The translations under genes and the position numbers were made by a program. The notes under the pieces are model-generated. The model ran no database searches. It worked only from the letters and a program-made list of their open reading frames with translations, and was not told the DNA's origin. Shown here piece after piece: positions 7,237-20,287 of a DNA stretch of 39,520 nt. This DNA comes from Clostridiales bacterium. Its GTDB lineage: Bacteria; Bacillota; Clostridia; Saccharofermentanales; Saccharofermentanaceae. The DNA lies in contig JAFZWA010000042.1 in NCBI GenBank assembly GCA_017617525.1, positions 1-39,520 on the forward strand, written 5' to 3'. How positions within the stretch are numbered: the stretch's first letter is position 1; each line of letters begins with the position of its first letter.

Positions 7237-7950
7237 ATGTTTAGAAAAAGAAACGGTGACATCAACTGGAGAAATATCATTCTTCTTGCGGTGGCGTTTA
7301 TCTGCCTCGTCGTGGGTGTCATCCTGCTTTTGATGGATCCGCTCAAGGATATGAAACGTCAAAAGCTGACTGACGATATGCATGAAAGCATCGTTGAGGC
7401 CGGACAGACGACTTTTGTCGTAAAGAGCTCCGGTAACGAAGTCAGCGGTGAAGAGTTCGAATATTACTACGGTGAAGAGTACGAAGAAGGCGGCGCTGCC
7501 GACTATAAGACGATCGTCGCAGAACTTCCCGATGAGGTCGTTCTGACCGCGCTCGGCACGATCCGTATCCCCTCTATTGACGTAGATATCCCGCTTTGGG
7601 ACGACGCGACCATCGTTTCCCTTCGTTACGGCGCCGGCCGATTGAAAGGCACTGCCGATCCGGGCCAGGAAGGAAACATGACGATCCTCGGACACAGAAT
7701 GAGAGCCGAAGGAAAGCTTTTCCATGCGCTTGGCGACGTAAAGATCGGTGACACGATCGAGATCAACGGTATCGACGGTAAAAACTACGTTTACGTCGTC
7801 GACACGATCCACGAAATGGTAACTCCGGAGGATCTGGACCTTTATATCGATATTGATGACGGTACGGGAAAACAGGTCACTCTTGTAACATGCACTCCGC
7901 TCGGTGTCGCGACACACAGACTTCTGGTCGTCGGACACCTTAAGGAATGA
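7237..7950 (+). CDS. Sortase family transpeptidase (membrane anchored)
   Basis: Sortases cleave a sorting signal in secreted proteins and link them to peptidoglycan or to pilin subunits outside the cell. This 237-aa protein has one N-terminal membrane segment (about 13-33), an acidic linker (about 66-90) and a sortase domain. The catalytic triad is visible as H153 (TILGHR), C219 (TLVTCTP) and R228 (THRLLVVG). The TCTPLGVATHRLLV block resembles the pilin-type class C or related clostridial classes, but the class is not certain. GGGG lies 5-6 nt before the ATG. No LPXTG-like substrate is encoded in the window, so it is an orphan here. murT follows closely. Confidence 0.9.
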   Translation: MFRKRNGDINWRNIILLAVAFICLVVGVILLLMDPLKDMKRQKLTDDMHESIVEAGQTTFVVKSSGNEVSGEEFEYYYGEEYEEGGAADYKTIVAELPDEVVLTALGTIRIPSIDVDIPLWDDATIVSLRYGAGRLKGTADPGQEGNMTILGHRMRAEGKLFHALGDVKIGDTIEINGIDGKNYVYVVDTIHEMVTPEDLDLYIDIDDGTGKQVTLVTCTPLGVATHRLLVVGHLKE

Positions 7951-7963
7951 GGCGGAGGTAGTT

Positions 7964-9451
7964 ATGGCATCGATCCGGTTTCACATCGCAGTATTTTCCG
8001 CAAAGTGCACGCATCTGGCTCTGCGCCTGATGGGAAGAGGCGCGACCACACTTCCGGGAAAGGTCGCCGTTAAGGTCGATCCGAAGATACTGAAAAAGCT
8101 CTGTTCGGGCCGCGACTGCGTCACCATTACCGGTACGAACGGTAAGACCACCACAACGCACATGATCACCGATATCTTCAGAAACTGCGGCTATACCGTC
8201 GTGACGAACGTATCCGGCGCAAACCTTCTTTCCGGTGTAACGACTTCCATGATCTTCGGCATGAAGGACATGAAGAAGGCCGAAAAGGAAGGGAAAAAGA
8301 TCATCTGCGTGCTGGAGACAGACGAAGCGGCCTACGGAAAGATCGCCTGCCAGATCATGCCGAAAGTATCGGTCGTCACGAACCTTTTCCGTGACCAGCT
8401 CGACCGTTTCGGCGAACTCGCGCACACCCGTGAACTGATCGCGAAGGGACTGGATTCCTGCGAGGCACAGATTCTTCTCAACAGCGACGATTCCCTCGTT
8501 TCCGAGCTCTACAAGGGAAGAGAAGGAAGAACGGTCTTCTATGGTCTTTCTGAAGAATCCATGCACTACAATAACGTCACGTATCCGGACAAATCCGGCG
8601 TGCTTCCGGCATCCTCGGACGCGGAATACTGCACGGGCTGTAAGACGAAATACACTTACACGGCCCGCTCTTTCGGGCACCTCGGTTCTTTTTCCTGCAG
8701 CAAGTGCGGAAAGAAGAGACAGTCTCCGAGATTCTTCGTTAAGTACGATCTTTCGAAGAATCCGTCGGACGAAGGCTATGAGCTTTCGCTCTGCGACGGC
8801 GGCGCAAACGGCGATAAGGCTACTGCGGAAGGTGCTTCCGGTCTGATCGAAAAGCGCGTGAAGCTTCCGATCCCGGGTATGCATAATTTCTATAACTCGA
8901 TCGCCGCGGTCTCCGCCTGCGTTTGCATGGGTGAGAAAATCGGCGATACGGAAGGTCTTTCTTTTGATAAATGCGCGGCGGCTCTCGAGCACGTCGAAGC
9001 GGCATTCGGCCGTATGGAAAAGATCAGTATCGGCGATAAGAAGATCTGCGTACTGCTCGTAAAGAACCCGGTCGGACTTGACCGTGCGCTCTCTTTCGTA
9101 GCCGGTGCTTCAGACGCCGAAGGAATCTACATGCTTTTAAACAGTAATATCGCGGACGGAAAAGATGTTTCTTGGATCTGGGACGTCGATTTCGAATCCA
9201 AGGATTTCCCTGAGAAAGTCTATGTTTCGGGCGACCGCTATGGTGACATGATGCTCCGTATCGTCTATTCCGGCGTAGACCGCTCGCGCATCATCGCCAA
9301 ACCGATGGAAGAATGCGCGGAACTTCTCGATCAGGCGATCTCTGATTCGACTCCGGGAAAATGCCTTTATATCCTGCCGAACTACACCTCGATGCTGGCG
9401 CTTCGATCGATCCTGGTCAAACGCTATCACCTGAAGGACTTCTGGAAATGA
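7964..9451 (+). CDS. murT: Lipid II isoglutaminyl synthase, Mur-ligase-like subunit MurT
   Basis: MurT with GatD amidates the alpha-carboxyl of D-Glu in lipid II to D-isoGln, using glutamine and ATP, at the cytoplasmic face. The Mur-ligase P-loop GTNGKTTTT is at 57-65 and NLFRDQLDRFGEL at 140-152. A four-cysteine zinc ribbon typical of MurT interrupts the central domain (C223, C226, C245, C248). The C-terminal DUF1727 region follows. The ATG at 7964 is chosen because GGAGG lies 5-6 nt upstream; the open frame extends into the sortase gene but without support. gatD starts about 16 bp after the stop, so the pair is one operon, possibly with the sortase. The 495-aa length is somewhat above the commonly seen 430-470. 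Confidence 0.95.
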   Translation: MASIRFHIAVFSAKCTHLALRLMGRGATTLPGKVAVKVDPKILKKLCSGRDCVTITGTNGKTTTTHMITDIFRNCGYTVVTNVSGANLLSGVTTSMIFGMKDMKKAEKEGKKIICVLETDEAAYGKIACQIMPKVSVVTNLFRDQLDRFGELAHTRELIAKGLDSCEAQILLNSDDSLVSELYKGREGRTVFYGLSEESMHYNNVTYPDKSGVLPASSDAEYCTGCKTKYTYTARSFGHLGSFSCSKCGKKRQSPRFFVKYDLSKNPSDEGYELSLCDGGANGDKATAEGASGLIEKRVKLPIPGMHNFYNSIAAVSACVCMGEKIGDTEGLSFDKCAAALEHVEAAFGRMEKISIGDKKICVLLVKNPVGLDRALSFVAGASDAEGIYMLLNSNIADGKDVSWIWDVDFESKDFPEKVYVSGDRYGDMMLRIVYSGVDRSRIIAKPMEECAELLDQAISDSTPGKCLYILPNYTSMLALRSILVKRYHLKDFWK

Positions 9452-9467
9452 CGAAAGGAAAGTGCTT

Positions 9468-10253
9468 TTGAAAATGGATAACACGGAAAAAGAACTTCGC
9501 ATATGTCATATGTATCCGGATCTCCTGAATCTCTACGGAGATCGGGGAAATGTCCTGAGCCTGATCAGAAGGGCCGAACTTAGAGGCATTAAGGCCAAGC
9601 TGGTTCCGGTTTCGATCGGCGACGATTTCAATGAGAACGATTTCGATATCGTATTCCTCGGCGGCGGCCAGGACGCGGAGCAGAACGTGATCCGTAAGGA
9701 TTTTGTTGAAGTGAAGGGGCCGAAGGTAAAGGAAGCCATCGAAAACGGCATGGTCTTCCTCTGTATCTGCGGCGGCTATCAGATGCTCGGAAAGTACTAC
9801 CAGGAGCACGACGGCACGAAGATCGAATGCTTAAACGCGATCGATATCTACACGGTCGGCGAGGATGTCCGATATATCCAGGATACGATCTACGAAGCAG
9901 ACTTTCTGAAAGAAGACGGGAACTCGAACAGTGCCTTGCTTTACGGATTTGAGAACCACAGCGGAAGAACGTATCTGGGACCTACGGTCAAGCCGATGGC
10001 AAAGGTCGTCGAGGGCGCCGGAAATAACGGAAAAGACGGATACGAGGGCGCGATCTATAATAACGTGTACTGCACCTATTCGCACGGAAGCTTCCTGCCG
10101 AAGAATCCGCGCATGACCGACCATCTCCTGCGTCTCGCGCTGAAGCGCAGATACGGAGAGGATTACGAACTGCCGGAGCTTTCGACGGAAACTGAGGACT
10201 TCGCCCGCGCGGCACTTCTGAAGTATAAGGAGAAGGGCAATACCGCTCCGTAA
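9468..10253 (+). CDS. gatD: Lipid II isoglutaminyl synthase, glutaminase subunit GatD
   Basis: GatD is a class I-like (CobB/CobQ-type) glutaminase that supplies ammonia to MurT. The nucleophile is the Cys before GGYQ in LCICGGYQMLG (C101) and the partner His is in YSHGSFLPKNP. The N-terminus RICHMYPDLLNLYGDRGNV is diagnostic for GatD. I chose the TTG at 9468, with AAAGGA 8 nt upstream; an ATG at 9474 and a GTG at 9462 are alternatives, and the difference is only a few residues. It ends at a strong hairpin terminator. Length (261 aa) is close to that of known GatD proteins. Confidence 0.95.
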   Translation: MKMDNTEKELRICHMYPDLLNLYGDRGNVLSLIRRAELRGIKAKLVPVSIGDDFNENDFDIVFLGGGQDAEQNVIRKDFVEVKGPKVKEAIENGMVFLCICGGYQMLGKYYQEHDGTKIECLNAIDIYTVGEDVRYIQDTIYEADFLKEDGNSNSALLYGFENHSGRTYLGPTVKPMAKVVEGAGNNGKDGYEGAIYNNVYCTYSHGSFLPKNPRMTDHLLRLALKRRYGEDYELPELSTETEDFARAALLKYKEKGNTAP

Positions 10254-10293
10254 GTTCAAAGAAGGATAGATTTATTACCATCAATGAATGGAA

Positions 10294-10320
10294 AAGGCAC
10301 CGCGAAAACGGTGCCTTGTT
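10294..10320 (+). terminator. Rho-independent terminator after gatD (bidirectional)
   Basis: AAGGCACCG (10294-10302) pairs with CGGTGCCTT (10309-10317) around the 6-nt loop CGAAAA, followed by GTTGTTT. On the other strand TTTTCC follows, so it can also serve the convergent PAS-GGDEF gene. Confidence 0.85.
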
Positions 10321-10344
10321 GTTTACAGGTGCTTTTCGAAAGGA

Positions 10345-11295
10345 TCAGGTCGCGCGGTCACGGCCGAGATTCTTCGATGTGTAGAGACGATCGTCTGCGG
10401 TGTGGATCAGGTCGGCAACATTGCTGCTGTCCTTGTAGCAGGAAATACCCATGCTGGCCGTAAGTCTTACCGGAGTCGATCTTTCATCGAGTACGATCGG
10501 GGCTTCGGAAAGCGCCAGACGTACACGCTCGGCCTGCTTCTTCGCGCCCTTGAGAGGAGTGTCCGGAAGGAGCATCATGAACTCGTCTCCGCCGATACGG
10601 AAGACCATGTCGGACTTTCTGCACTGGGAGGTGAGGATGCCGGCGACGAGGCGCAGAACGTCATCACCCTTGTTGTGACCGAATTCATCGTTGATCTTCT
10701 TGAAGAAGTCGATATCCAAGGAGATCAGTGAGAATGTATCGTCCGGATCGTTCTTCTTTTTGTAGTTTCTGCGATCGTACTGAGAAGCGGTCTTCTCGAT
10801 CATCTCGTAGAAATAACGGCGATTGAAAAGACCCGTCAGATCGTCGACCTGCGACAGTCTCTTCAGTTTTTCATTGGTGCGGCTCAGCTCTTCTTCCACG
10901 ATCTTAAGCGCGGTGATGTTGCGGCTGATGCCCCAGGTGCCGATTACTTTGTCGTTCTCGTCGATGATCGGGTATTTGGAAGCGGAATACCAGACGATGG
11001 AACCATCCGGTTTCTCGAGCTTTTCGATATTGGAAATGAGAGGGATCCGAGTCTCCATGATCTCCATCTCTTCTCTTTTAGAACGTGCGGCAAAATCCTT
11101 CGGGAAATAATCGGCATCCGTTTTGCCTACCATTTCGCGTGGGTCACTGATGCCGAACTGCGCGGCGTGGGAACGGTTATTCCAGACGAAGCGGGAGTGA
11201 GCGTCTTTGAAATAAATGGTATCGTTGGAATAGTCGCGGATGACTTCCAAAATCTTTTCGTTGGAAAAGTTAGGATCCAATTTTTTCTTAGCCAT
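10345..11295 (-). CDS. PAS-GGDEF diguanylate cyclase
   Basis: This 316-aa soluble protein should make cyclic di-GMP from two GTP. An N-terminal PAS fold (about 15-130, ending GTWGISRNITAL) is joined by a short helical linker to a GGDEF domain (about 145-312). The active site is intact: GGDEF at 235-239 and DIDFFKKINDEFGHNKGD at 194-211. The product-inhibition I-site RKSD (226-229) sits exactly five residues before GGDEF. No membrane segment is seen, so the PAS domain probably senses a cytoplasmic ligand. It has the same domain plan as the protein at 28557-29531, but that one is degenerate. It is a single gene between terminators. Confidence 0.93.
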   Translation of the reverse strand: MAKKKLDPNFSNEKILEVIRDYSNDTIYFKDAHSRFVWNNRSHAAQFGISDPREMVGKTDADYFPKDFAARSKREEMEIMETRIPLISNIEKLEKPDGSIVWYSASKYPIIDENDKVIGTWGISRNITALKIVEEELSRTNEKLKRLSQVDDLTGLFNRRYFYEMIEKTASQYDRRNYKKKNDPDDTFSLISLDIDFFKKINDEFGHNKGDDVLRLVAGILTSQCRKSDMVFRIGGDEFMMLLPDTPLKGAKKQAERVRLALSEAPIVLDERSTPVRLTASMGISCYKDSSNVADLIHTADDRLYTSKNLGRDRAT

Positions 11296-11431
11296 AAATG
11301 AAGCTCCTTACCAATCTCTTTTCCCAAACCGTCTTCTAATTACTTCTTCAAAATCCATTTTCTCCCACGTTTCACATTATCTCAAAAAAAATGGAAAAAA
11401 GAAATAGAGAAAAGCATTTCTTCGTGGTTTC

Positions 11432-11440
11432 TGCTATACT
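11432..11440 (+). promoter_or_regulatory. Extended -10 promoter of the LeuA-like gene
   Basis: TGCTATACT at 11432-11440 is an extended -10 (TGn plus TATACT), 32 bp upstream of the ATG. No good -35 is visible, as expected for extended -10 promoters. Confidence 0.6.
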
Positions 11441-11472
11441 GTGACTGTAATTTACGAAGAAACGGTGACCTT

Positions 11473-13017
11473 ATGAAGCTGGAAATCATGGATACCACCC
11501 TTCGGGATGGTGAACAGACCCCGGGAGTTTCGTTTTCTCCCAGTGAAAAATTGAGCATTGCCAAGATCCTTCTCGACGAAGTCAAAGTCGACCGAGTCGA
11601 GGTCACCTCCGCGCGTATTTCCGACGGTGATTTTGAGGCGCTTCAGCGCATCACGGAATGGGCAAAAGGAAAGGGTTATCTCGATAAGGTCGAGGTACTC
11701 GCTTTTGTCGATCGAGGACATTCTCTTTCCTGGATCGAAAATGCCGGCGGACGCGTGATCAATCTCCTTTGCAAAAGCTCTCTTCACCACCTCACCGCGC
11801 AGCTCGGAAAGACACCGGAGCAGCACGTCGGCGAGATCAGAAGAGTCATTGAAGACGCGGCTTTCCGCGACATGAAGGTCAACATCTATCTGGAAGACTG
11901 GTCTAACGGCGTCCAGAGTGATTTTGAATACGTAAAGATGCTCGTTTCCGAGCTTTCCGTCCTGCCTGTCGAAAGGATCATGCTGGCGGATACGCTTGGT
12001 GTTCTGACACCGGATATGACTTTCGAGTATGTCAAAAAGATGGTCGATCTTTTCCCGGAGGTCCATTTCGATTTCCACGCGCACAACGACTACGACATGT
12101 CGGTCGGAAATACCATCATGGCCGTAAAAGCAGGCGCGAAGGGCGTTCACGTTACCGTTAACGGCCTGGGCGAACGCGCCGGTAACGCGCCTCTTGCTTC
12201 GATCGTAGGCGCGGTCGCCGACTTCTGCGATAAAAGATCGATCGACGTCAATGAAACGGCACTTGAGCATGTCAGTAAGATGGTCGAGTCCTTTTCGGGC
12301 ATGCGTATTCCGAAGAACCAGCCAATCACCGGCGCGGCCGTATTTACGCAGACTTGCGGCGTTCACGCGGACGGCGACACGAAGGATTCCCTGTACTGCA
12401 ATAAGCTCGCTCCGGAGCGGTTCGGACGTATGCGTCAGTACGCGCTCGGTAAGTCCAGCGGACGCGCGAGCATAGCGAAGAACTTAGAAGAGATCGGTCT
12501 GAACCTGGATCAGGAATCTCTGGAAAAAGTAACTGCCAGGATCGTTGAGATGGGTGATAACAAAGAGAGCATCATGACCGACGAGCTCCCGTACATCGTT
12601 GCCGACGTTCTCGGTAAAGGAAACGGCGAGTCGAACGTGAAGATCCTGAACTACTACGTCTGCCACGCAAGAGACTTAAATCCCGTAGCGACGATGCGTA
12701 TCCAGATCGACGATAAAGTACACGAAGCGAGTGCTTCCGGTGAAGGTCAGTTCGACGCCTTCATGAGAGCGCTTCAGAAGATCTATCAACAGTTCGGAAG
12801 AACGCTCCCGTTCTTCGCCGACTATACCGTTACGATCCCGCCGGGAGGCCGTACGAACGCGTTCGTCGAGAGTGTCATCACATGGCGCGACGGCGAGCAC
12901 GAGTTTAAGACCAGAGGTCTCGATCGAGATCAGGTCGCGGCGGCGATCAAGGCCACGGCAAAGATGCTCAACATCATTTACGAGCAGGAACAGCTGGGCG
13001 AGCAGGACGTACATTGA
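11473..13017 (+). CDS. 2-isopropylmalate / (R)-citramalate / homocitrate synthase family enzyme
   Basis: The protein belongs to the DRE-TIM acyl-CoA Claisen condensing enzymes, which join acetyl-CoA to a 2-oxo acid. The TIM barrel starts with MDTTLRDGEQTPGV (6-19, catalytic Arg and metal Asp), has the metal-binding HAHND at 202-206 and the GLGERAGNAP loop at 231-240. The C-terminal third (about 385-510) looks like the LeuA regulatory/dimer domain. The substrate cannot be fixed; the closest type I recall is the LeuA-like group common in Bacteroidota and some anaerobes, variously annotated as isopropylmalate or citramalate synthase. No leuB, leuC or leuD lies nearby. GGTGA precedes the ATG by 5 nt, and a strong terminator follows. 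Confidence 0.85.
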   Translation: MKLEIMDTTLRDGEQTPGVSFSPSEKLSIAKILLDEVKVDRVEVTSARISDGDFEALQRITEWAKGKGYLDKVEVLAFVDRGHSLSWIENAGGRVINLLCKSSLHHLTAQLGKTPEQHVGEIRRVIEDAAFRDMKVNIYLEDWSNGVQSDFEYVKMLVSELSVLPVERIMLADTLGVLTPDMTFEYVKKMVDLFPEVHFDFHAHNDYDMSVGNTIMAVKAGAKGVHVTVNGLGERAGNAPLASIVGAVADFCDKRSIDVNETALEHVSKMVESFSGMRIPKNQPITGAAVFTQTCGVHADGDTKDSLYCNKLAPERFGRMRQYALGKSSGRASIAKNLEEIGLNLDQESLEKVTARIVEMGDNKESIMTDELPYIVADVLGKGNGESNVKILNYYVCHARDLNPVATMRIQIDDKVHEASASGEGQFDAFMRALQKIYQQFGRTLPFFADYTVTIPPGGRTNAFVESVITWRDGEHEFKTRGLDRDQVAAAIKATAKMLNIIYEQEQLGEQDVH

Positions 13018-13032
13018 TGAGAGTCAAGAAAA

Positions 13033-13067
13033 GCGGCCGGATGGAAATCATCCGGCCGCATATTTTT
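13033..13067 (+). terminator. Rho-independent terminator of the LeuA-like gene
   Basis: An 11-bp GC-rich stem (13033-13043 with 13049-13059) with a 5-nt loop is followed by ATATTTTT. It sits just before the end of the convergent membrane-protein gene. Confidence 0.9.
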
Positions 13068-13080
13068 AGTGTTATCGGGA

Positions 13081-14700
13081 TCATTTCGCGAAGTATTTAA
13101 AGAAGATCGAATCCTCGTAATCGTATACGAAGAACTGGTCTTTTACGGTCTGAAGTTCAGACGCGTATTTGATGTTTCCGAACGATCCGATCAGGTCTTT
13201 TTCCGCGACAGTCGGCTCATCCGAAAGATTCATCGGATACGAGGTCAGCGCGGAATAGAGGATGTAGTTTCCGGGCGTGTACGCGGCGACGACCATAAGG
13301 ATCAGAACGAGTCTTCCCGCGATGGCTTTTTTCAACTTAAGATCTTTTCTTCGGCACATCTCGAAATTGTCGGTGACGAACATGACGACATAAAGACCGA
13401 TCATGAACATCGGCGCCATGCTTCCTCGCATCAGGAAATCGTTGGCGATGCTGATCTTATAGATCGGCAGGATCAAAAGCGTGATGAACGCGGTCCAGAG
13501 CATCGGATCTTTCTTGTGCTTTCTGATGATCAGGATGAACCAGAAAACGAAATCGAAGAGGACGAACATGATGTAGTCCTTAAGAAGATGAAGCGGAGTA
13601 TAGAATTTCCAGATGAATCCGTCCGCGCCGGTGGCATTCGGATTCGCGGTATAAAGCGATCCGAAAAGCACCAGACAGATGATCGGCGGAATGATATTCT
13701 GCGGAGTGAAGACGGTCTTCAGGATCGATTTGAGGAAAGGTGCTTTTGCGGCGGTATCTTCGGAGTTTTCGTCAGCGCCGTTTCTATTTCTGCTCGTCAT
13801 GATGATCTTGCAGACGCACATCGGGAAAATGCCGATCGTGGCCCATGGTGAATAGCAGAACATCAGACCGCCCAGAAGACCGATGCTTTGGCCATTTGGC
13901 GCAAGGAGAAGAAGCGTCGTGATCATCCAGCCCGGGATGCTCTGGTTAAAAACATTCATGATCTGGAAGAAGTTGCTGTGGATAAAGAGGTGCTTCGTCC
14001 AGCCCTCCCAGGTGGTTCCCGTTCCGGTGATCCTGTTGATCACGTACGGAATGACGTCAAATCCGGCGAACAGGATCAGGCAGAAAAACAGTACCTTCGA
14101 CGAGCGCTTGTAAAGCAGGGAAGCGCCGAGAGAAACGAGGAACAGTCCGATGCCCGTCCAGATGAAAAGCACGATCCTCGCGGCCATAAGTCCGAAGAGC
14201 TTTCCGAAAAGCGCCGGTACCATCCAGAACGCGAAGTAATAGGCAAACGCCGCGGTCCCGGAGCCGAGGTTTGCCGCGACGGCGGGATTCTGCTGCGTGG
14301 AGAAATCGTAGATAACCGGCCACTTGTACTCGACCAGATCATTTAGGATCGCATATCTGACGCGGTGGTCGGCCGAGCAGTTGCCGAATTCGCTGACACC
14401 GCCCCAGTAAAGAAGGATAGGGATCAAGATGATGACGAAGATCAGATAGGATGGATTGATGACTATCGATCTATCAGATTCTTTAAGTGAAACAGGGTCC
14501 TTTTTCATGCTACGCATGGTCAGGTAAACGGCGCCGATCAGGCCTGCCGAGAAGAGAACTGCCCACCAGATCTTCAGATATCCGAAAATGAAGATCACTA
14601 CCGGAAGCGCCAGATAGATAAGCGCCGCAAGATAGAAACTTCTTACGTTTATGGATAAGGGATGACGGCGGCTTTCTTTAAGGGAACTTACTTCCTGCAT
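13081..14700 (-). CDS. Multi-pass membrane protein of unknown function (GT-C-like?), partner of the MurD-CapA fusion
   Basis: This 539-aa protein has roughly ten to twelve hydrophobic segments and short loops. I do not recognise the family. After the first three hydrophobic stretches comes an acidic/His loop with SADHRVRYAILNDL (109-122) and then WPVIYD. That layout (an Asp in the first large outer loop, then a WP motif) recalls GT-C-type polyprenyl-phosphate-sugar transferases and O-antigen-type membrane enzymes, but the match is loose. A cytoplasmic basic/acidic stretch breaks the middle. Its start lies one nucleotide after the MurD-CapA stop, with AGG as the only nearby ribosome site, so translational coupling is likely and a joint role is the obvious inference. 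Confidence 0.7.
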   Translation of the reverse strand: MQEVSSLKESRRHPLSINVRSFYLAALIYLALPVVIFIFGYLKIWWAVLFSAGLIGAVYLTMRSMKKDPVSLKESDRSIVINPSYLIFVIILIPILLYWGGVSEFGNCSADHRVRYAILNDLVEYKWPVIYDFSTQQNPAVAANLGSGTAAFAYYFAFWMVPALFGKLFGLMAARIVLFIWTGIGLFLVSLGASLLYKRSSKVLFFCLILFAGFDVIPYVINRITGTGTTWEGWTKHLFIHSNFFQIMNVFNQSIPGWMITTLLLLAPNGQSIGLLGGLMFCYSPWATIGIFPMCVCKIIMTSRNRNGADENSEDTAAKAPFLKSILKTVFTPQNIIPPIICLVLFGSLYTANPNATGADGFIWKFYTPLHLLKDYIMFVLFDFVFWFILIIRKHKKDPMLWTAFITLLILPIYKISIANDFLMRGSMAPMFMIGLYVVMFVTDNFEMCRRKDLKLKKAIAGRLVLILMVVAAYTPGNYILYSALTSYPMNLSDEPTVAEKDLIGSFGNIKYASELQTVKDQFFVYDYEDSIFFKYFAK

Positions 14701-14701
14701 C

Positions 14702-17074
14702 TTATGCCTCCGAACCGCTGTTCAGATCGGGGATCTGGTCACGGATATATTTGACGATATCCTGCATTCTACTTTCTTTCCAGGCTTCTTCTTTTTCCTT
14801 TTCGGCCAGCGGACAGAGGATAAAGAAGTCCAGTGTTTCACCCGGAACTCTTCCTGTACGGAGCGGCTCTTCGAAGTGTGCTTTCCACTCTTCTTCGGTC
14901 GCGTCCTTAAAACGCTTCGGGTCGAGATATCTCATCTGACGGCGTGTCGCGGCGATATGCATCTTCGCCGAAAGCGGCGACAGGAGCTTATATTCGTCTT
15001 CCGGAACGTCCTGGAAGATGACCGGAAGTTCACCGAGATCGACATGTTCTTCACCGCGAAGGATGTCGATACCGTAAGGGGTGAATGAGAACTCCTTTTC
15101 GGATAGTTTAAGGGAAAGGAGAAGTCCTTTTTCCGTATTGTACTGAGAGCGCTGATAGTCGGTATCGAAGATGAAGTTACCGAGTGAATAGAAGATGGCT
15201 TTATCACCGACCATCTCGTAATTCATCGGAACGTGCGGGTGGTGCGAGACGACGATGTCCGCGCCCATCTCAAGATACAGGTGATATCTGTCTCTGGTGT
15301 AAGGAGACGGAAGCGGCGTGAATTCCTCGCCCGCGTGCGCGACAACAATGCACCAGCGGCAGGTCTTTTTGATCTTCGTAATTGCGTCCTGAATGGCATC
15401 CAGATCACTCCAGCTGAAGCAGCCGGCTTCATCTTCCGTTGCTTTTCGACAGGCACGCTGATAACCGACGCCGAACATGCCGATACCGCCTGCTTCGGGA
15501 AGTGTCAGGATCTTTCTTGCCTCCGTGATATTCATGCCGGCGCCGATGGTTTGGATGCCGCGTTTTTCGGCCTCTTTCAGCGTCGACGCGATGCCTTCCA
15601 CGCCTGCGTCTTTGATGTGGTTGTTGCAGATATTCCAGATATCACAGTGATTTTCCGAAAGGAAATCGGCGACGGCCGGCTCCATGAAATGGAGGAGCTG
15701 CTTGGCGCCTTCGTTGACTTCATTTTTCGGGCACTCCATGATCGGTCCTTCGACATTGGCGATCACGTGGTCGGCAAAAGAAAGGACGTCTTTAACGCGC
15801 TTTGATAGGAGCTTCGGATCTTCCCACTTGTGATCCATGTAACGGTCGAATCCGATATCACCGGTGAAGACGAGTGTGGTCTCGCCTTTGACTAACTGGC
15901 AGAACTTTTCGCCACGTGCCTCAAAATCCTTGAAGTGCGTGTAGGACGCTGCGGCCGGGGACATGATGCATGCCTTGCCCGATGGTGTGATCCTTCTTGC
16001 CATCTCGACGGATTCCTTGATGTCGGAAACGAGGTGGCAGTAGGGAAGGTCGCCGACCTCATCGTAGATGCGCTTGCCGCTTTCGTAAGCACAGATGTAC
16101 CGGTACTCCGAATGCTCCTTGATGAAGGCGATGAGCGTGGTGTAGTCGATGCCGCGATCCATGCCGCCGATCAGGAGCGTGCCTGTATTTTTGATGCTGG
16201 TCGCAGCCTGAATGGTCGCCTGCGGGATCGTGGAAATCGAGTCGTTATAGAAATCGATGCCGTCGAAGTTTCCGACGAACTCGAGACGGTGGTGAAGACC
16301 GGTAAAGGTCTCGATGCTCTTTCTTACTTTCTCGGGATCAAGTCCCAGCACTTCCGTGCAGATACGGTAAACGAAGGTCGCGTTGAACCGGTTGTGATTG
16401 CCTTTGAGCTGCATGTTAAACTGCATCGCTTCGTTGAAATTCAGAAGGTTCTTTTTCGCTTTCGTCTCGATCGGCGGAACGTCATTTCCGTAGAAAAGAT
16501 AGTCTTCCGGACCCTGATGGATCGTGATGTTCTTCTTCGCGTTGAAGTAGTTTTCCATCGTGATATATCGGTCGAGATGATCCTCATAGAGATTGAGGAA
16601 TACGGCGATATGCGGAGAGAACTCAAGATCCGAGAGCTGATGACAGGACAGTTCGTAAACGATCAGGGTCTCGTCGTGGATCTCATCGTAGTAGTCAAAG
16701 CAGGGAAGTCCGATATTTCCGCAGAGAATCGCGTTGCCGTTTCTTACGTCGTGAAGGACGTGATAAAGAAGTGAGGAAGTGGTGCTTTTGCCTTTGGTAC
16801 CGGTAACGCCGATGACCTTGGATCCGAACTCTTCCATGAAAAGACGTGTCTGGGAAATATACTTGGGTTCATCGGCATGAGTGATGATGCCCGGACTTTT
16901 CAAGATGTAATCGAAATCACTTGCGCGCTTTAAGATCTCATCTTCCGAACCCTCGACCATTTCATAGGCCGCGCCGGGGCAGTGCTCCAGGAGGAACTTT
17001 TCGGAAGACTTTCCTTCTCTTCCTTTTCCCCAGATGAGAATTCGTTTGTTATCGAGCTTTTCCGTGATCTTCAT
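14702..17074 (-). CDS. MurD-like ligase fused to a CapA/PgsA metallophosphatase-like domain
   Basis: Residues 1-397 are a full MurD-type ligase: P-loop GVTGTKGKSTT (89-99), LNLYEDHLDRY (160-170), the AKK of the carbamylated-lysine loop (179-181), KGNHNRFN (224-231) and the MurD-type end SPAAASYTHFKDFEARG (372-388). Residues 400-790 are a CapA/PgsA domain: TGDIGFD (404-410), ANVEGP (439-444), NNHIKDAG (484-491), AHAGEE (579-584), SHHPHV (610-615) and YSLGNFIFD (629-637). The junction is only a few residues. Canonical MurD has NDSKATN and a GGxDK-type block; here they read NDSISTI (277-283) and GGMDRG (303-308), so two lysines near the amino-acid acceptor are lost. No signal peptide or membrane segment is seen, so the CapA domain should be cytoplasmic, unlike usual PgsA. 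GGAG lies 8 nt before the ATG. Confidence 0.9.
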   Translation of the reverse strand: MKITEKLDNKRILIWGKGREGKSSEKFLLEHCPGAAYEMVEGSEDEILKRASDFDYILKSPGIITHADEPKYISQTRLFMEEFGSKVIGVTGTKGKSTTSSLLYHVLHDVRNGNAILCGNIGLPCFDYYDEIHDETLIVYELSCHQLSDLEFSPHIAVFLNLYEDHLDRYITMENYFNAKKNITIHQGPEDYLFYGNDVPPIETKAKKNLLNFNEAMQFNMQLKGNHNRFNATFVYRICTEVLGLDPEKVRKSIETFTGLHHRLEFVGNFDGIDFYNDSISTIPQATIQAATSIKNTGTLLIGGMDRGIDYTTLIAFIKEHSEYRYICAYESGKRIYDEVGDLPYCHLVSDIKESVEMARRITPSGKACIMSPAAASYTHFKDFEARGEKFCQLVKGETTLVFTGDIGFDRYMDHKWEDPKLLSKRVKDVLSFADHVIANVEGPIMECPKNEVNEGAKQLLHFMEPAVADFLSENHCDIWNICNNHIKDAGVEGIASTLKEAEKRGIQTIGAGMNITEARKILTLPEAGGIGMFGVGYQRACRKATEDEAGCFSWSDLDAIQDAITKIKKTCRWCIVVAHAGEEFTPLPSPYTRDRYHLYLEMGADIVVSHHPHVPMNYEMVGDKAIFYSLGNFIFDTDYQRSQYNTEKGLLLSLKLSEKEFSFTPYGIDILRGEEHVDLGELPVIFQDVPEDEYKLLSPLSAKMHIAATRRQMRYLDPKRFKDATEEEWKAHFEEPLRTGRVPGETLDFFILCPLAEKEKEEAWKESRMQDIVKYIRDQIPDLNSGSEA

Positions 17075-17275: not shown

Positions 17276-18667
17276 TTATGTACCCACTGCTTCCGTGGTT
17301 CCTCTTTTCATCTTTCTCCAGATCGTGAAATACATCGTCGTGAAGCAGATGCTCGCTCCGATCATCTGACTGAAAAACTCTGCCCAGAAAACACCGTCAA
17401 CGCCCATTCCGATATTCGGAAGAAGAAGCGTCAGAGGGGTGACCAGTAGGATCTTTCGAAGCATGGAAAAGAACAGCGCCCGTTTCGGACAGTTCAGCGC
17501 GACAAAGGTGGTCTGTCCGCTCATCTGAAGTGCCATGAACGGGAACGCGCCGAAGTAGATGCGCGCGCAGTGAACGGTCAGGTCGATCAGTTCCTCGTCA
17601 TCGGAAAAGATACGGAAGACCGGTCCCGGAATAAAGAGCATCGCGAGCCACAAAAGGACATTGACGATCAGGCCGCTGATGAAGATGAAGCGGATGCATT
17701 CGGAGACACGCTTATTCTGCTTCGCGCCGTAGTTATAGCTCATGACATTCTGTCCCGCGGCGGTAACTCCGCTGTTCGGAAGACTCATGATCTCTCGAAC
17801 CGAATTCGCCAGGCTCATCGCGCCGACATAGAGCGTACTGAGCTCGCCGCCGAAGCTTTTGAGCATGATGTTTACGACCGCCTGCGTCATACTGGTCGTG
17901 ACCTTAAACGTAAATCCGGTCGCGCCGAGTTTGATGAGTCCCGGGAGCTGTTTTCTGTCGATGAGAAGACGCTTCAGGCGAAGCGGAGGCCTTTTGCCTC
18001 GAAGGAAGATAATGACCCACAGGGCGCTCGCGCTCTGGGAAATGACCGTCGCGAGAGCCGCGCCTTTGATGCCCATATCGAATACGAAGATGAAGAGCGG
18101 GTCGAGCGCGATATTCAGGACGGCGCCGAGAACAACGGTGGCCATACCGATCTTCGGAAAGCCCTGCGCCGTGATGAACGGGTTCATGCCGAGGCTGATC
18201 AGCACGGGGATCGTGCCGATGACGTAGATGCGGAAATAGTCGACTGCGTAGGGAAGCGAGGATTCGTCACCGCCGAGGATCTCGAGGATCCAGGGAGCGA
18301 TGGCAAAAAGAGTCACGGTCAGGACCGCGCCGATGATCAGAAGAAGCGAAAAGGAAGTCGCCATCATGCGCTCTGCTTTTCCGTCTTTATGCTCGCCTCT
18401 GGCGATCGTGGCAAGTGTAGTACCGCCTGTGCTGCAGAGGTTGGCAAACGCGCTGATGAAGGTGATCAACGGGAAGCACACGCCAAGGCCCGTGATAGCG
18501 AGAGTTCCGGTCTCGCCCATGTGGCCGATATAAGCTCTGTCGACGATGTTATAGAGTACAACGACCAGCTCGGCCAGCATGATCGGAAGACCGAGTTTTA
18601 AGATCAGAAGAGGGACATTTCCCTTGGAGAAGTCGCCTTGTTTAGTTTTCGCGCATGGCTCACTCAT
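17276..18667 (-). CDS. MATE family multidrug/organic-cation efflux transporter
   Basis: This 463-aa protein has about twelve hydrophobic segments in two homologous halves. Typical MATE features are the N-terminal GNVPLLILKLGLPIMLAEL, the PLITFISAFANLCSTGGTTL stretch in the first half and the matching VGAMSLANSVREI block in the second half. MATE pumps export cationic drugs or metabolites driven by Na+ or H+. Its ATG overlaps the CDF stop codon by 4 nt (ATGA), so it is translated after the CDF gene; no separate strong ribosome site is seen. The stop codon lies in the loop of a 13-bp hairpin with a 2-nt bulge (17260-17299). Confidence 0.95.
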   Translation of the reverse strand: MSEPCAKTKQGDFSKGNVPLLILKLGLPIMLAELVVVLYNIVDRAYIGHMGETGTLAITGLGVCFPLITFISAFANLCSTGGTTLATIARGEHKDGKAERMMATSFSLLLIIGAVLTVTLFAIAPWILEILGGDESSLPYAVDYFRIYVIGTIPVLISLGMNPFITAQGFPKIGMATVVLGAVLNIALDPLFIFVFDMGIKGAALATVISQSASALWVIIFLRGKRPPLRLKRLLIDRKQLPGLIKLGATGFTFKVTTSMTQAVVNIMLKSFGGELSTLYVGAMSLANSVREIMSLPNSGVTAAGQNVMSYNYGAKQNKRVSECIRFIFISGLIVNVLLWLAMLFIPGPVFRIFSDDEELIDLTVHCARIYFGAFPFMALQMSGQTTFVALNCPKRALFFSMLRKILLVTPLTLLLPNIGMGVDGVFWAEFFSQMIGASICFTTMYFTIWRKMKRGTTEAVGT

Positions 18668-19830
18668 ACATATGACCGGTCGATCTTAATGACACAGAAG
18701 TGGTGAGGGTGCTTTTCGAGCATCTTCTTCTGGACGCTCTGGATCAGTTCTTTTTCCGAAGTGGTCACATCGTGCGGGACGACCATGTCGAAAATGAGGT
18801 TCGTGTGGCTATCGCCCGGAACCATGCGGAAATCATGGATCGTGATGCGCTCGTCGAGCTCTTTGACGATCTCTTTTGCTTCGTCCTGAAGCTTCATGAG
18901 ATCCTTGTTTTTCGTATCGATCGGATCCATGTGGATGACGGCCTCGCAGTCGAGTTCTTTGGCCAGATCGTACTCGATATTGTCGATGACGTCATGGACA
19001 TAGAACATGTCTTGGAAAGCGGAAACTTCGGCGTGAAGGGAGACCATCTTTCTGCCCGGACCGTAGTCGTGAACGACCACATCGTGGATGCCGCTGATGG
19101 CTTCGTGGGACATGACGATCTCTTCGATCTTGTCGATGAATTCTTTGGACGGCGGAGTGCCGAGGAGCGGCTCGATGGTTTCTCTCGCGGCATTGATTCC
19201 GGAGTAGAGGATAAAGACCGCAAGCGCAACACCGATATACGCGTCGACCGGAAGGTCGGTGAATTTCGTGGAGATAACGGCGAGAAGTACAACGGATGTG
19301 GAGATCATGTCGTTTCTGCTGTCGATCGCTGTCGCGCGCATCGCCGAGGAGTCAATGATCTTCGCCCATTTGAAGTTGTAGTACATCATGTAGGCTTTTA
19401 CCAGAAGGGAAGCGATCAGCATCGCGACGGCAAGGACCGTGCAGTCGACCGCTGTCGGGTGGATGATGCCCTCGATCGAGGATTTACCGAGCTCGAAGCC
19501 CATGATGCAGATTAGAAGGGAAACGATGAGACCGGAGATGTACTCGAGACGGCCGTGTCCGAACGGATGGTCGGCGTCCGGTGCTTTTCCCGCGAGACGA
19601 AAACCGATCATCGTGATGATCGAAGATCCCGCGTCGGAGAGGTTGTTCAAAGCGTCACCGACGATGGCGATGGAGTGTGTCAGGATACCCATGACGAGCT
19701 TTCCGATGAAAAGCATGATGTTGAAGAAAATACCGCACGCGCCGCAGATACTTCCGACGTCACGGCGCACCTGAGGCTGCTTCGGCTGATCGATATTCTT
19801 CACCAGTTTTCGGATCAAAAAGGAAACCAT
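18664..19830 (-). CDS. Cation diffusion facilitator (CDF) family divalent-metal transporter
   Basis: This 388-aa protein should export Zn2+, Fe2+, Mn2+ or similar ions in exchange for protons. It has about six membrane segments, the metal-site helix HSIAIVGDALNNLSDAGSS with two Asp residues, and DADHPFGHGRLEY just after the next segment. A long cytoplasmic C-terminal domain with several His/Asp residues is typical of the family; it may bind metal. The chosen ATG at 19830 has GGGAG about 5 nt upstream; the open frame runs on another 270 bp but without family homology. It is coupled to the MATE gene by a 4-nt overlap. Confidence 0.95.
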   Translation of the reverse strand: MVSFLIRKLVKNIDQPKQPQVRRDVGSICGACGIFFNIMLFIGKLVMGILTHSIAIVGDALNNLSDAGSSIITMIGFRLAGKAPDADHPFGHGRLEYISGLIVSLLICIMGFELGKSSIEGIIHPTAVDCTVLAVAMLIASLLVKAYMMYYNFKWAKIIDSSAMRATAIDSRNDMISTSVVLLAVISTKFTDLPVDAYIGVALAVFILYSGINAARETIEPLLGTPPSKEFIDKIEEIVMSHEAISGIHDVVVHDYGPGRKMVSLHAEVSAFQDMFYVHDVIDNIEYDLAKELDCEAVIHMDPIDTKNKDLMKLQDEAKEIVKELDERITIHDFRMVPGDSHTNLIFDMVVPHDVTTSEKELIQSVQKKMLEKHPHHFCVIKIDRSYV

Positions 19831-19867
19831 GGTTTCTCCCTTCCTACTTTCCTTCACGTTTCCATAC

Positions 19868-19873
19868 ATTATA
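19868..19873 (-). promoter_or_regulatory. Probable -10 element for the CDF-MATE operon
   Basis: The minus strand carries TTATAATG, a perfect TATAAT at plus 19868-19873, 38 bp before the CDF ATG. No clear -35 is seen. About 90 bp away, TTGTAAAAT (19958-19966) on the plus strand could start gatCAB divergently. Confidence 0.45.
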
Positions 19874-19999
19874 ACAGGGTTTTCAGAAGTGGGGGTGAAA
19901 AAGCGGTACGGAATATGGTTGGTTTCGGTGTGAATAAGGGGATTCATGCGCTTTTTGTTGTAAAATGGAGGGGATGAAAATTCAAAGTTGAGGAGCCTT

Positions 20000-20287
20000 A
20001 TGGATCGATCTTCGGAAAAAGAACTGGAACGCATCGCCCGGCTTTCGGGGCTGACGCTGTCGGCGGAGGAGAAAGACATTCTCTTTGCCGACCTGTCACG
20101 CATCGTTCCTTATATGGAGCGCATCTCGGAACTGGATACTTCCGGCGCGGAGGATGCTCCTGAAGATACCGACAACGAGGCTCATTTCCGTGAAGATACG
20201 GAAAAAGCACCTTCCCTTGCCTCTGAGATCTTAGATCAGGCGCCACAGGCGAAAGACGGCATGTTCAATGTGCCTAGGATCGTGTAA
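20000..20287 (+). CDS. gatC: Asp-tRNA(Asn)/Glu-tRNA(Gln) amidotransferase subunit C
   Basis: GatC is the small scaffold subunit that stabilises GatA in the GatCAB complex. The 95-aa protein shows the typical two-helix start (SEKELERIARLSGLTLSAEE) and an acidic end (FREDTEKAPSLASEI...). The ATG at 20000 is preceded by AGGAG 5 nt upstream; a TTG at 19988 is less likely. gatA starts 10 bp after the stop. The operon implies that Gln-tRNA, and perhaps Asn-tRNA, is made by the indirect transamidation route. Confidence 0.95.
   Translation: MDRSSEKELERIARLSGLTLSAEEKDILFADLSRIVPYMERISELDTSGAEDAPEDTDNEAHFREDTEKAPSLASEILDQAPQAKDGMFNVPRIV

Follow-up and report, generated by a model that had tools for sequence, protein, structure and literature searches.

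A MurD–CapA fusion of Clostridia as a candidate MurD2-epimerase of peptidoglycan precursor synthesis

A single frame joining MurD and CapA

A 39,520-base stretch of DNA from a Clostridiales bacterium of the family Saccharofermentanaceae (contig JAFZWA010000042.1; hereafter the window, from genome G000, 95% complete) carries one 790-residue open frame in which a MurD-type ligase is joined to a CapA/PgsA domain, as a first-pass annotation of the sequence had described. Residues 47–396 match the murD model TIGR01087, the membership feature of canonical MurD, with 262 bits against a cut-off of 211.95, and residues 400–637 match Pfam PGA_cap (PF09587) with 165 bits against a cut-off of 27. The ligase matches no CapB model and is MurD-like, in agreement with the annotation, which had also correctly seen that the CapA half lacks a membrane anchor; it has no leader either, and its domain begins directly after the ligase. 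The predicted structure of the fusion has a mean predicted local distance difference test (pLDDT) score of 87 and a predicted template modelling (pTM) score of 0.66, which leaves the relative placing of the two halves unsure.

The fusion is conserved. It is present at full length in 19 of 20 further genomes of the window's genus that were fetched for comparison, and a contig end cuts the remaining one. Among 23 genomes of the genus, the MurD over cut-off is a frame of 782–806 residues, the sole one listed, in 20; of the other three, G017 has a contig-cut fusion, and G012 (79% complete) and G014 (84%) have no MurD over cut-off. Although some other Clostridia encode the two halves as distinct genes side by side, the chance that an assembly or sequencing error joined two genes here, raised earlier as a possible refutation, is negligible: the same-genus fusions exclude it, and the same full-length fused frame also occurs in more distant genomes.

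A profile search of the window's genome found no second MurD over the murD cut-off besides the fusion. The division cluster of this genome contains genes for a SpoVD-like penicillin-binding protein, murE, murF, ftsW, murG, an ftsQ-like gene and ftsZ, and murD is absent from it. (Apparent frames of about 1000 residues for murE and murF were rejected; these are two separate genes in the window's genome.) The ligase is therefore not the paralogue that the annotation had supposed. The annotation had taken the lack of any other murD, paired with normal D-glutamate (D-Glu) ligase activity, as evidence against its proposal; the first half of this came true, with an outcome that it had not foreseen.

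Ligase type and D-glutamate supply across Clostridia

By alignment, Asp182, Lys319 and Lys348 of Escherichia coli MurD correspond to Asp165, Ile280 and Arg307 in the window, so that Lys348, a feature of canonical MurD, is replaced by Arg. The blocks NDSISTI and GGMDRG, which the annotation had matched to the two lysines, do align with them. The first proved uninformative: Ile at the Lys319 position is also found in ordinary clostridial MurD, so Lys319-to-Ile was rejected as a marker and only Lys348-to-Arg is informative. As described in passages of PMC8788868, MurD2 of Xanthomonas oryzae has Glu197 and Arg358 at the Asp182 and Lys348 positions, and reverting both made it a D-Glu ligase; Streptococcus mutans MurD, a known exception, has Arg at the switch position yet uses D-Glu.

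The Arg switch follows the genes that accompany the ligase. In an alignment of 123 MurD rows, with some genes present twice, Arg stands at the Lys348 position in 79 of 79 rows linked to CapA or MurL (33 fused, 16 adjacent, 18 from genomes with stand-alone CapA and 12 with MurL), and Lys stands there in 43 of 44 unlinked rows, the last having a gap. The Asp182 position is occupied by Glu in 12 of 12 MurL, 18 of 18 stand-alone-CapA, 11 of 16 adjacent and 4 of 33 fused rows. In a tree made by a quick method from 84 of these rows, with X. oryzae MurD2 itself not among them, all 54 Arg rows form one clade (support 100), the fused and adjacent MurDs form a clade of 27 rows (support 100), and MurL-linked MurD2 is joined by 17 of the 18 MurDs that come from genomes with stand-alone CapA (support 94). 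On alignment and phylogeny, the ligase half is placed with the MurL-linked, MurD2-type ligases, and its predicted substrate is L-Glu. The earlier suggestion that the enzyme adds another amino acid fits this changed Glu-binding site.

Few features of bacterial cell walls are as strongly conserved as D-Glu at position 2. Its sources in passages of the literature are the racemase MurI, side activities of other racemases, D-amino-acid transaminase and MurL. We counted these in 59 genomes comprising the window's own, its genus, its family and its order, including eight each from families f2, f3 and f4. MurI passes its cut-off in none of the 23 genus genomes, in 11 of 12 from other genera of the same family, and in 8 of 8, 7 of 8 and 0 of 8 genomes of f2, f3 and f4. 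MurL is missing at E ≤ 1e-3 from all 23 genus genomes and was found in none of the 51 genomes outside f4; all eight f4 genomes have it, with best matches of 205–285 bits, each short of the 700 that is set as cut-off for Xanthomonadales. D-amino-acid transaminase over cut-off is found in 0 of 59. In f4, MurL adjoins or is fused to a MurD of the same Arg type, and these genomes look, from their genes, like users of the known MurD2/MurL pathway.

Several single-chain MurL–MurD fusions, with MurL first, were seen alongside this count: a 928-residue open reading frame in G046 (locus L036; MurL at 49–378, MurD at 491–916), L040 (G058, 898 residues), L317 (G037, 1019 residues) and, by shared frame, G055. 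Genomes G132 and G160 have two MurDs over cut-off each, and G132 unites two routes: one of its MurDs is ordinary (Lys), and the other, next to MurL, is of Arg type.

In a wider class sample of 393 Clostridia genomes, each at least 90% complete, MurI is found in 353 at E ≤ 1e-25 and in 338 over cut-off, and the fusion-type CapA in only 2 (715 and 702 bits; next match 241 bits). MurI at E ≤ 1e-25 is missing from 2 of 2 carriers of this CapA versus 38 of 391 others (Fisher p 0.010, uncorrected for kinship); of those 38, at least G037, G040, G043, G132, G139 and G216 have MurL. Among relatives, MurI over cut-off is missing in 20 of 20 versus 10 of 36 (Fisher p 3.8e-8, uncorrected for kinship, the 20 being one genus from which three genomes lacking a fusion frame of full size were excluded). 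This pattern of MurI loss points to peptidoglycan.

The fused layout is one of three. A scan of named genomes gave 292 relatives, and among the best 80, which we kept, 33 are fused (many of the same genus), 14 have adjacent genes and 33 have CapA alone; the other MurD–CapA fusions that the annotation had proposed to look for thus exist. In the adjacent layout MurD precedes CapA on the same strand, with MurD broken into two frames in L148 and cut in L152. Fifty of the 80 carriers were given a genome search: MurI, over cut-off or at E ≤ 1e-25, is found in 1 of 50 (G069) and in 0 of 18 with CapA alone, and a MurD match is found in 50 of 50, over cut-off in 49. MurL was not found within 3.8–6.5 kilobases on each side of MurD2 in any of the 18 stand-alone-CapA genomes. 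The same MurL profile detected MurL directly beside MurD2 in 3 of 3 loci that lack both MurI and this CapA (L285, L287 and L294); next to two ordinary MurDs (L278 and L191) it detected no MurL. MurL and CapA thus alternate, one MurD2 clade having either as its companion.

One genome of another genus of the same family, g2, shows both changes at once. MurI is present in the class sample's eleven other g2 genomes, and in four of these that were re-examined an ordinary Lys-type MurD is the sole match. G454, alone in g2, carries the fusion-type CapA; MurI is missing at E ≤ 1e-25, and the one MurD that passes the cut-off there is of Arg type and lies 10 nucleotides (nt) upstream of CapA. This MurD shares 57% identity with the window's ligase half, and this CapA 64% with the window's CapA half. 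To judge from these genes, the pair in G454 stands in for MurI and an ordinary MurD, a natural swap. MATE and cation-efflux genes, of the kinds that also stand next to the window's fusion, enclose the pair (L272, G454:C34:43000-62500, at 8627-13650), and with these flanks it resembles a cassette that has passed from one genus to another.

The CapA half and a proposed route to D-glutamate

The fused, adjacent and stand-alone CapA versions share the consensus start MKxxTxLVFTGDIGF. The fusion-type CapA proteins group in a single clade of 25 rows (support 100) that excludes the 30 other CapA proteins compared, and all 25 have the motif HHPHVPMN where others typically have HPHxxQP-like sequences. 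The window's genome carries three other CapA genes. As a separate observation, a 961-residue frame elsewhere in this genome (L223, G000:C6:2500-6500, at 50-2935) has a long N-terminal part before another CapA domain, and CapA frames of 960–1000 residues also occur in genus genomes G007, G008, G015, G016 and G020.

The nearest solved relative of the CapA half, by sequence and by predicted structure, is MslH (PDB 8gq9 and 8itg), its best structural match (Foldseek E 2.9e-16; 17–18% identity over the match). Passages of PMC10406935 describe MslH as a metal-dependent enzyme in which two His/Asp pairs surrounding a Ca ion epimerise a C-terminal Trp; they give its reaction as reversible and mention no need for ATP. 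Glu442, Asn485, His486, Asp489, His580 and His614 of the fusion align with E44, N87, H88, D91, H259 and H295 of MslH and are invariant in 20 fusions. These include the catalytic H88, D91 and H295, kept as His486, Asp489 and His614, and the metal ligands E44, N87 and H259. The remaining catalytic residue, D11, lies outside the alignment, and we take Asp406 of the TGD motif as its counterpart, by motif only. With the fold, six of the eight metal and catalytic positions are shared by alignment and a seventh by this motif, while the fourth metal ligand, H261, is replaced.

We consider it likely that the fusion is a MurD2-epimerase of peptidoglycan precursor synthesis, with a CapA-family epimerase as a non-homologous replacement of MurL. 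The ligase half would attach L-Glu to the precursor, and the CapA half would then probably turn the attached L-Glu to the D form. We infer an epimerase reaction, a metal that serves it and passage of the product between the two halves. The D product would be drawn off by MurE. The fusion would thereby replace the glutamate racemase MurI and would also stand in for MurL, the epimerase that uses ATP in the MurD2/MurL pathway of Xanthomonas.

Several observations weigh against this proposal. In the ligase half, the second MurD2 switch residue, Glu, is Asp165 in the window and Asp in 29 of 33 fused rows. In the CapA half, the MslH metal ligand H261 is Gly582, the MslH model NF038314 scores 52 bits on the fusion versus a cut-off of 700, and the MslH residues are common to many of the 30 other CapA proteins compared; they permit an epimerase and do not prove one, and we rejected them as proof on this account. 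Loss of MurI is no proof by itself, since some Clostridia that lack it also lack both this CapA and any MurD of Arg type. The MurL search in the 18 stand-alone-CapA genomes covered the flanks of MurD2, and none was made genome-wide there or in G454. Two carriers do not fit simply: besides its MurD2–CapA pair, G069 carries MurI and a piece of canonical MurD, with a small difference in G+C content between the contigs (0.571–0.576 vs 0.527), and G066 has a canonical MurD besides the pair, on a contig whose G+C content is 0.655 vs 0.479, a strong difference that suggests a mixed bin.

The main loophole lies in other supplies of D-Glu. The window's genome has a TIGR00035 Asp/Glu-type amino-acid racemase (159 bits versus a cut-off of 93) and a 291-residue class IV aminotransferase of unclear kind that could supply D-Glu, and a DapF with glutamate racemase activity, for which no search was made here, is reported for Chlamydia (PMC5885031). 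The ligase half might then be a D-Glu-adding MurD with an unusual site, fed by one of these enzymes, with CapA at an unrelated task. The S. mutans exception and the Ile of ordinary clostridial MurD would suit this, as would the finding, in passages of PMC12502697, that an overexpressed aspartate racemase can supply D-Glu in Vibrio fischeri. We nevertheless hold it to be unlikely. No such racemase was detected at E 1e-3 in 6 of 23 genus genomes with the glutamate-racemase model, an indirect detector to which the other 17 give a weak match; completeness is 92% or more in four of the six, each of which has no MurD over cut-off besides the fusion. Nor would a D-Glu-adding MurD explain the alternation of CapA and MurL beside one MurD2 clade, or the state of G454.

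A different reading of the CapA half deserves mention, since MslH and CapA have the calcineurin-like fold of metal-dependent phosphoesterases and the metal residues suit both activities. The ligase would again add L-Glu, and the CapA half would be a hydrolase or phosphodiesterase acting on the precursor or on a nucleotide, in control or repair, with position 2 either staying L-Glu or being served by another epimerase. In the phosphodiesterase YmdB, the Asn after the Glu helps to hold the second metal (passages of PMC10406935); in the fusion Gly443 follows Glu442, and MslH also lacks the Asn. Further, the murE, murF, murT-like and gatD-like genes of this genome are of kinds named for D-Glu-containing precursors, and the alternation with MurL points to MurL's task. 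A hydrolase thus seems improbable to us.

The proposed MurD2-epimerase shares with the Xanthomonas pathway, as passages of PMC8788868 present it, a MurD2-type ligase with Arg at the Lys348 position, the lack of MurI and the expectation that a second protein epimerises the newly added Glu, and homologous MurL–MurD pairs and fusions occur in the same order as the window's genus. It differs in that the genus lacks MurL; the fused, calcineurin-fold partner fits none of the MurL models and would, by prediction, depend on a metal and not on ATP. Like MslH, the CapA half would act on a residue with a free carboxylate, although another substrate is expected. From the canonical combination of MurD and MurI, with which it shares the TIGR01087 match and the MurD fold, it is set apart by the lack of MurI over cut-off in the genus, the Arg in place of Lys348 and a separate clade.

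Open-licence PubMed Central (PMC) papers yielded no report of a MurD–CapA fusion or of a CapA-type peptidoglycan epimerase. If the proposal is true, such an epimerase would add an enzyme to those known for an essential step, and many uncultured gut Clostridia would be predicted to be independent of MurI, offering a separate target. To our knowledge, the chemistry of CapA/PgsA proteins is unsettled; the family would gain a testable chemistry, and by extension some other CapA/PgsA proteins may be glutamyl epimerases.

Genes around the fusion

The multi-pass membrane protein that begins 1 nt past the stop codon of the fusion, as the annotation had reported, has no match among Pfam or NCBIfam families, and its structure model is unusable (mean pLDDT 32.7). 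A relative lies downstream of the fusion in 6 of 18 relatives with a long enough contig, and in three of those six the gap is about 610–660 nt; the protein was therefore rejected as an obligate, coupled partner.

This bears on the first-pass proposal of a new polymer or envelope system, in which the fusion would make poly-gamma-glutamate or another envelope polymer with the membrane protein as a PgsC-like partner. Membership of the PGA_cap family, which is known chiefly from capsule genes and includes CapA/PgsA of poly-gamma-glutamate synthesis, is in its favour. Yet the fusion is the genome's only MurD over cut-off, on which ground a separate polymer system was rejected. Its ligase matches murD, its leaderless and anchorless CapA half, in a genome with three other CapA genes, belongs to the HHPHVPMN clade tied to MurD, and the pattern of MurI loss leads to peptidoglycan. 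In contrast to PgsBCA/CapBCA systems, the fusion locus has no CapB or PgsC match; the search for CapB and CapC was confined to this locus. We give the polymer system very little credence.

Further features of the window are collected in Table 1. The MurT/GatD family amidates D-Glu of lipid II, and the murT-like family acts on the same cell-wall peptide residue as the fusion; murT-like and gatD-like genes also lie near the fusion in several relatives.

Table 1. Coordinates of the fusion, its halves and other genes in the window
Feature	Position	Strand	Basis or remark
MurD2–CapA fusion protein, 790 residues	14702-17074	minus	Single open frame; genome's only MurD over cut-off
Ligase half, residues 1–397, MurD2-type	15884-17074	minus	TIGR01087, 262 bits; clade; alignment with E. 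coli MurD
CapA half, residues 398–790, predicted metal-dependent peptide epimerase	14705-15883	minus	PF09587; MslH alignment; Foldseek
Multi-pass membrane protein, 539 residues	13081-14700	minus	Not an obligate part; no family match
murT-like, ligase subunit of lipid II isoglutaminyl synthase	7904-9451	plus	NF045635, 267.5 bits, below cut-off of 800; MurT_C over cut-off
gatD-like, glutaminase subunit of the same enzyme	9462-10253	plus	NF045636, 224.6 bits, below cut-off of 400; GATase_3 over cut-off
MATE and cation-efflux genes	17276-20103		Beside the fusion
gyrB, recF, dnaN, dnaA	442-7103		
2-Isopropylmalate synthase-like gene	11473-13017		Best model Leptospira (R)-citramalate synthase, 615 bits, below cut-off of 950

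The gyrB, recF, dnaN and dnaA genes put the fusion close to genes usual at a chromosome origin. Just upstream of the fusion in L124, L125 and L150 lies a gene about 50% identical to L012 2286-3350, a neighbour in the MurI reference locus; this 'MURI_2286' was rejected as a MurI, being merely a neighbour gene of that locus.

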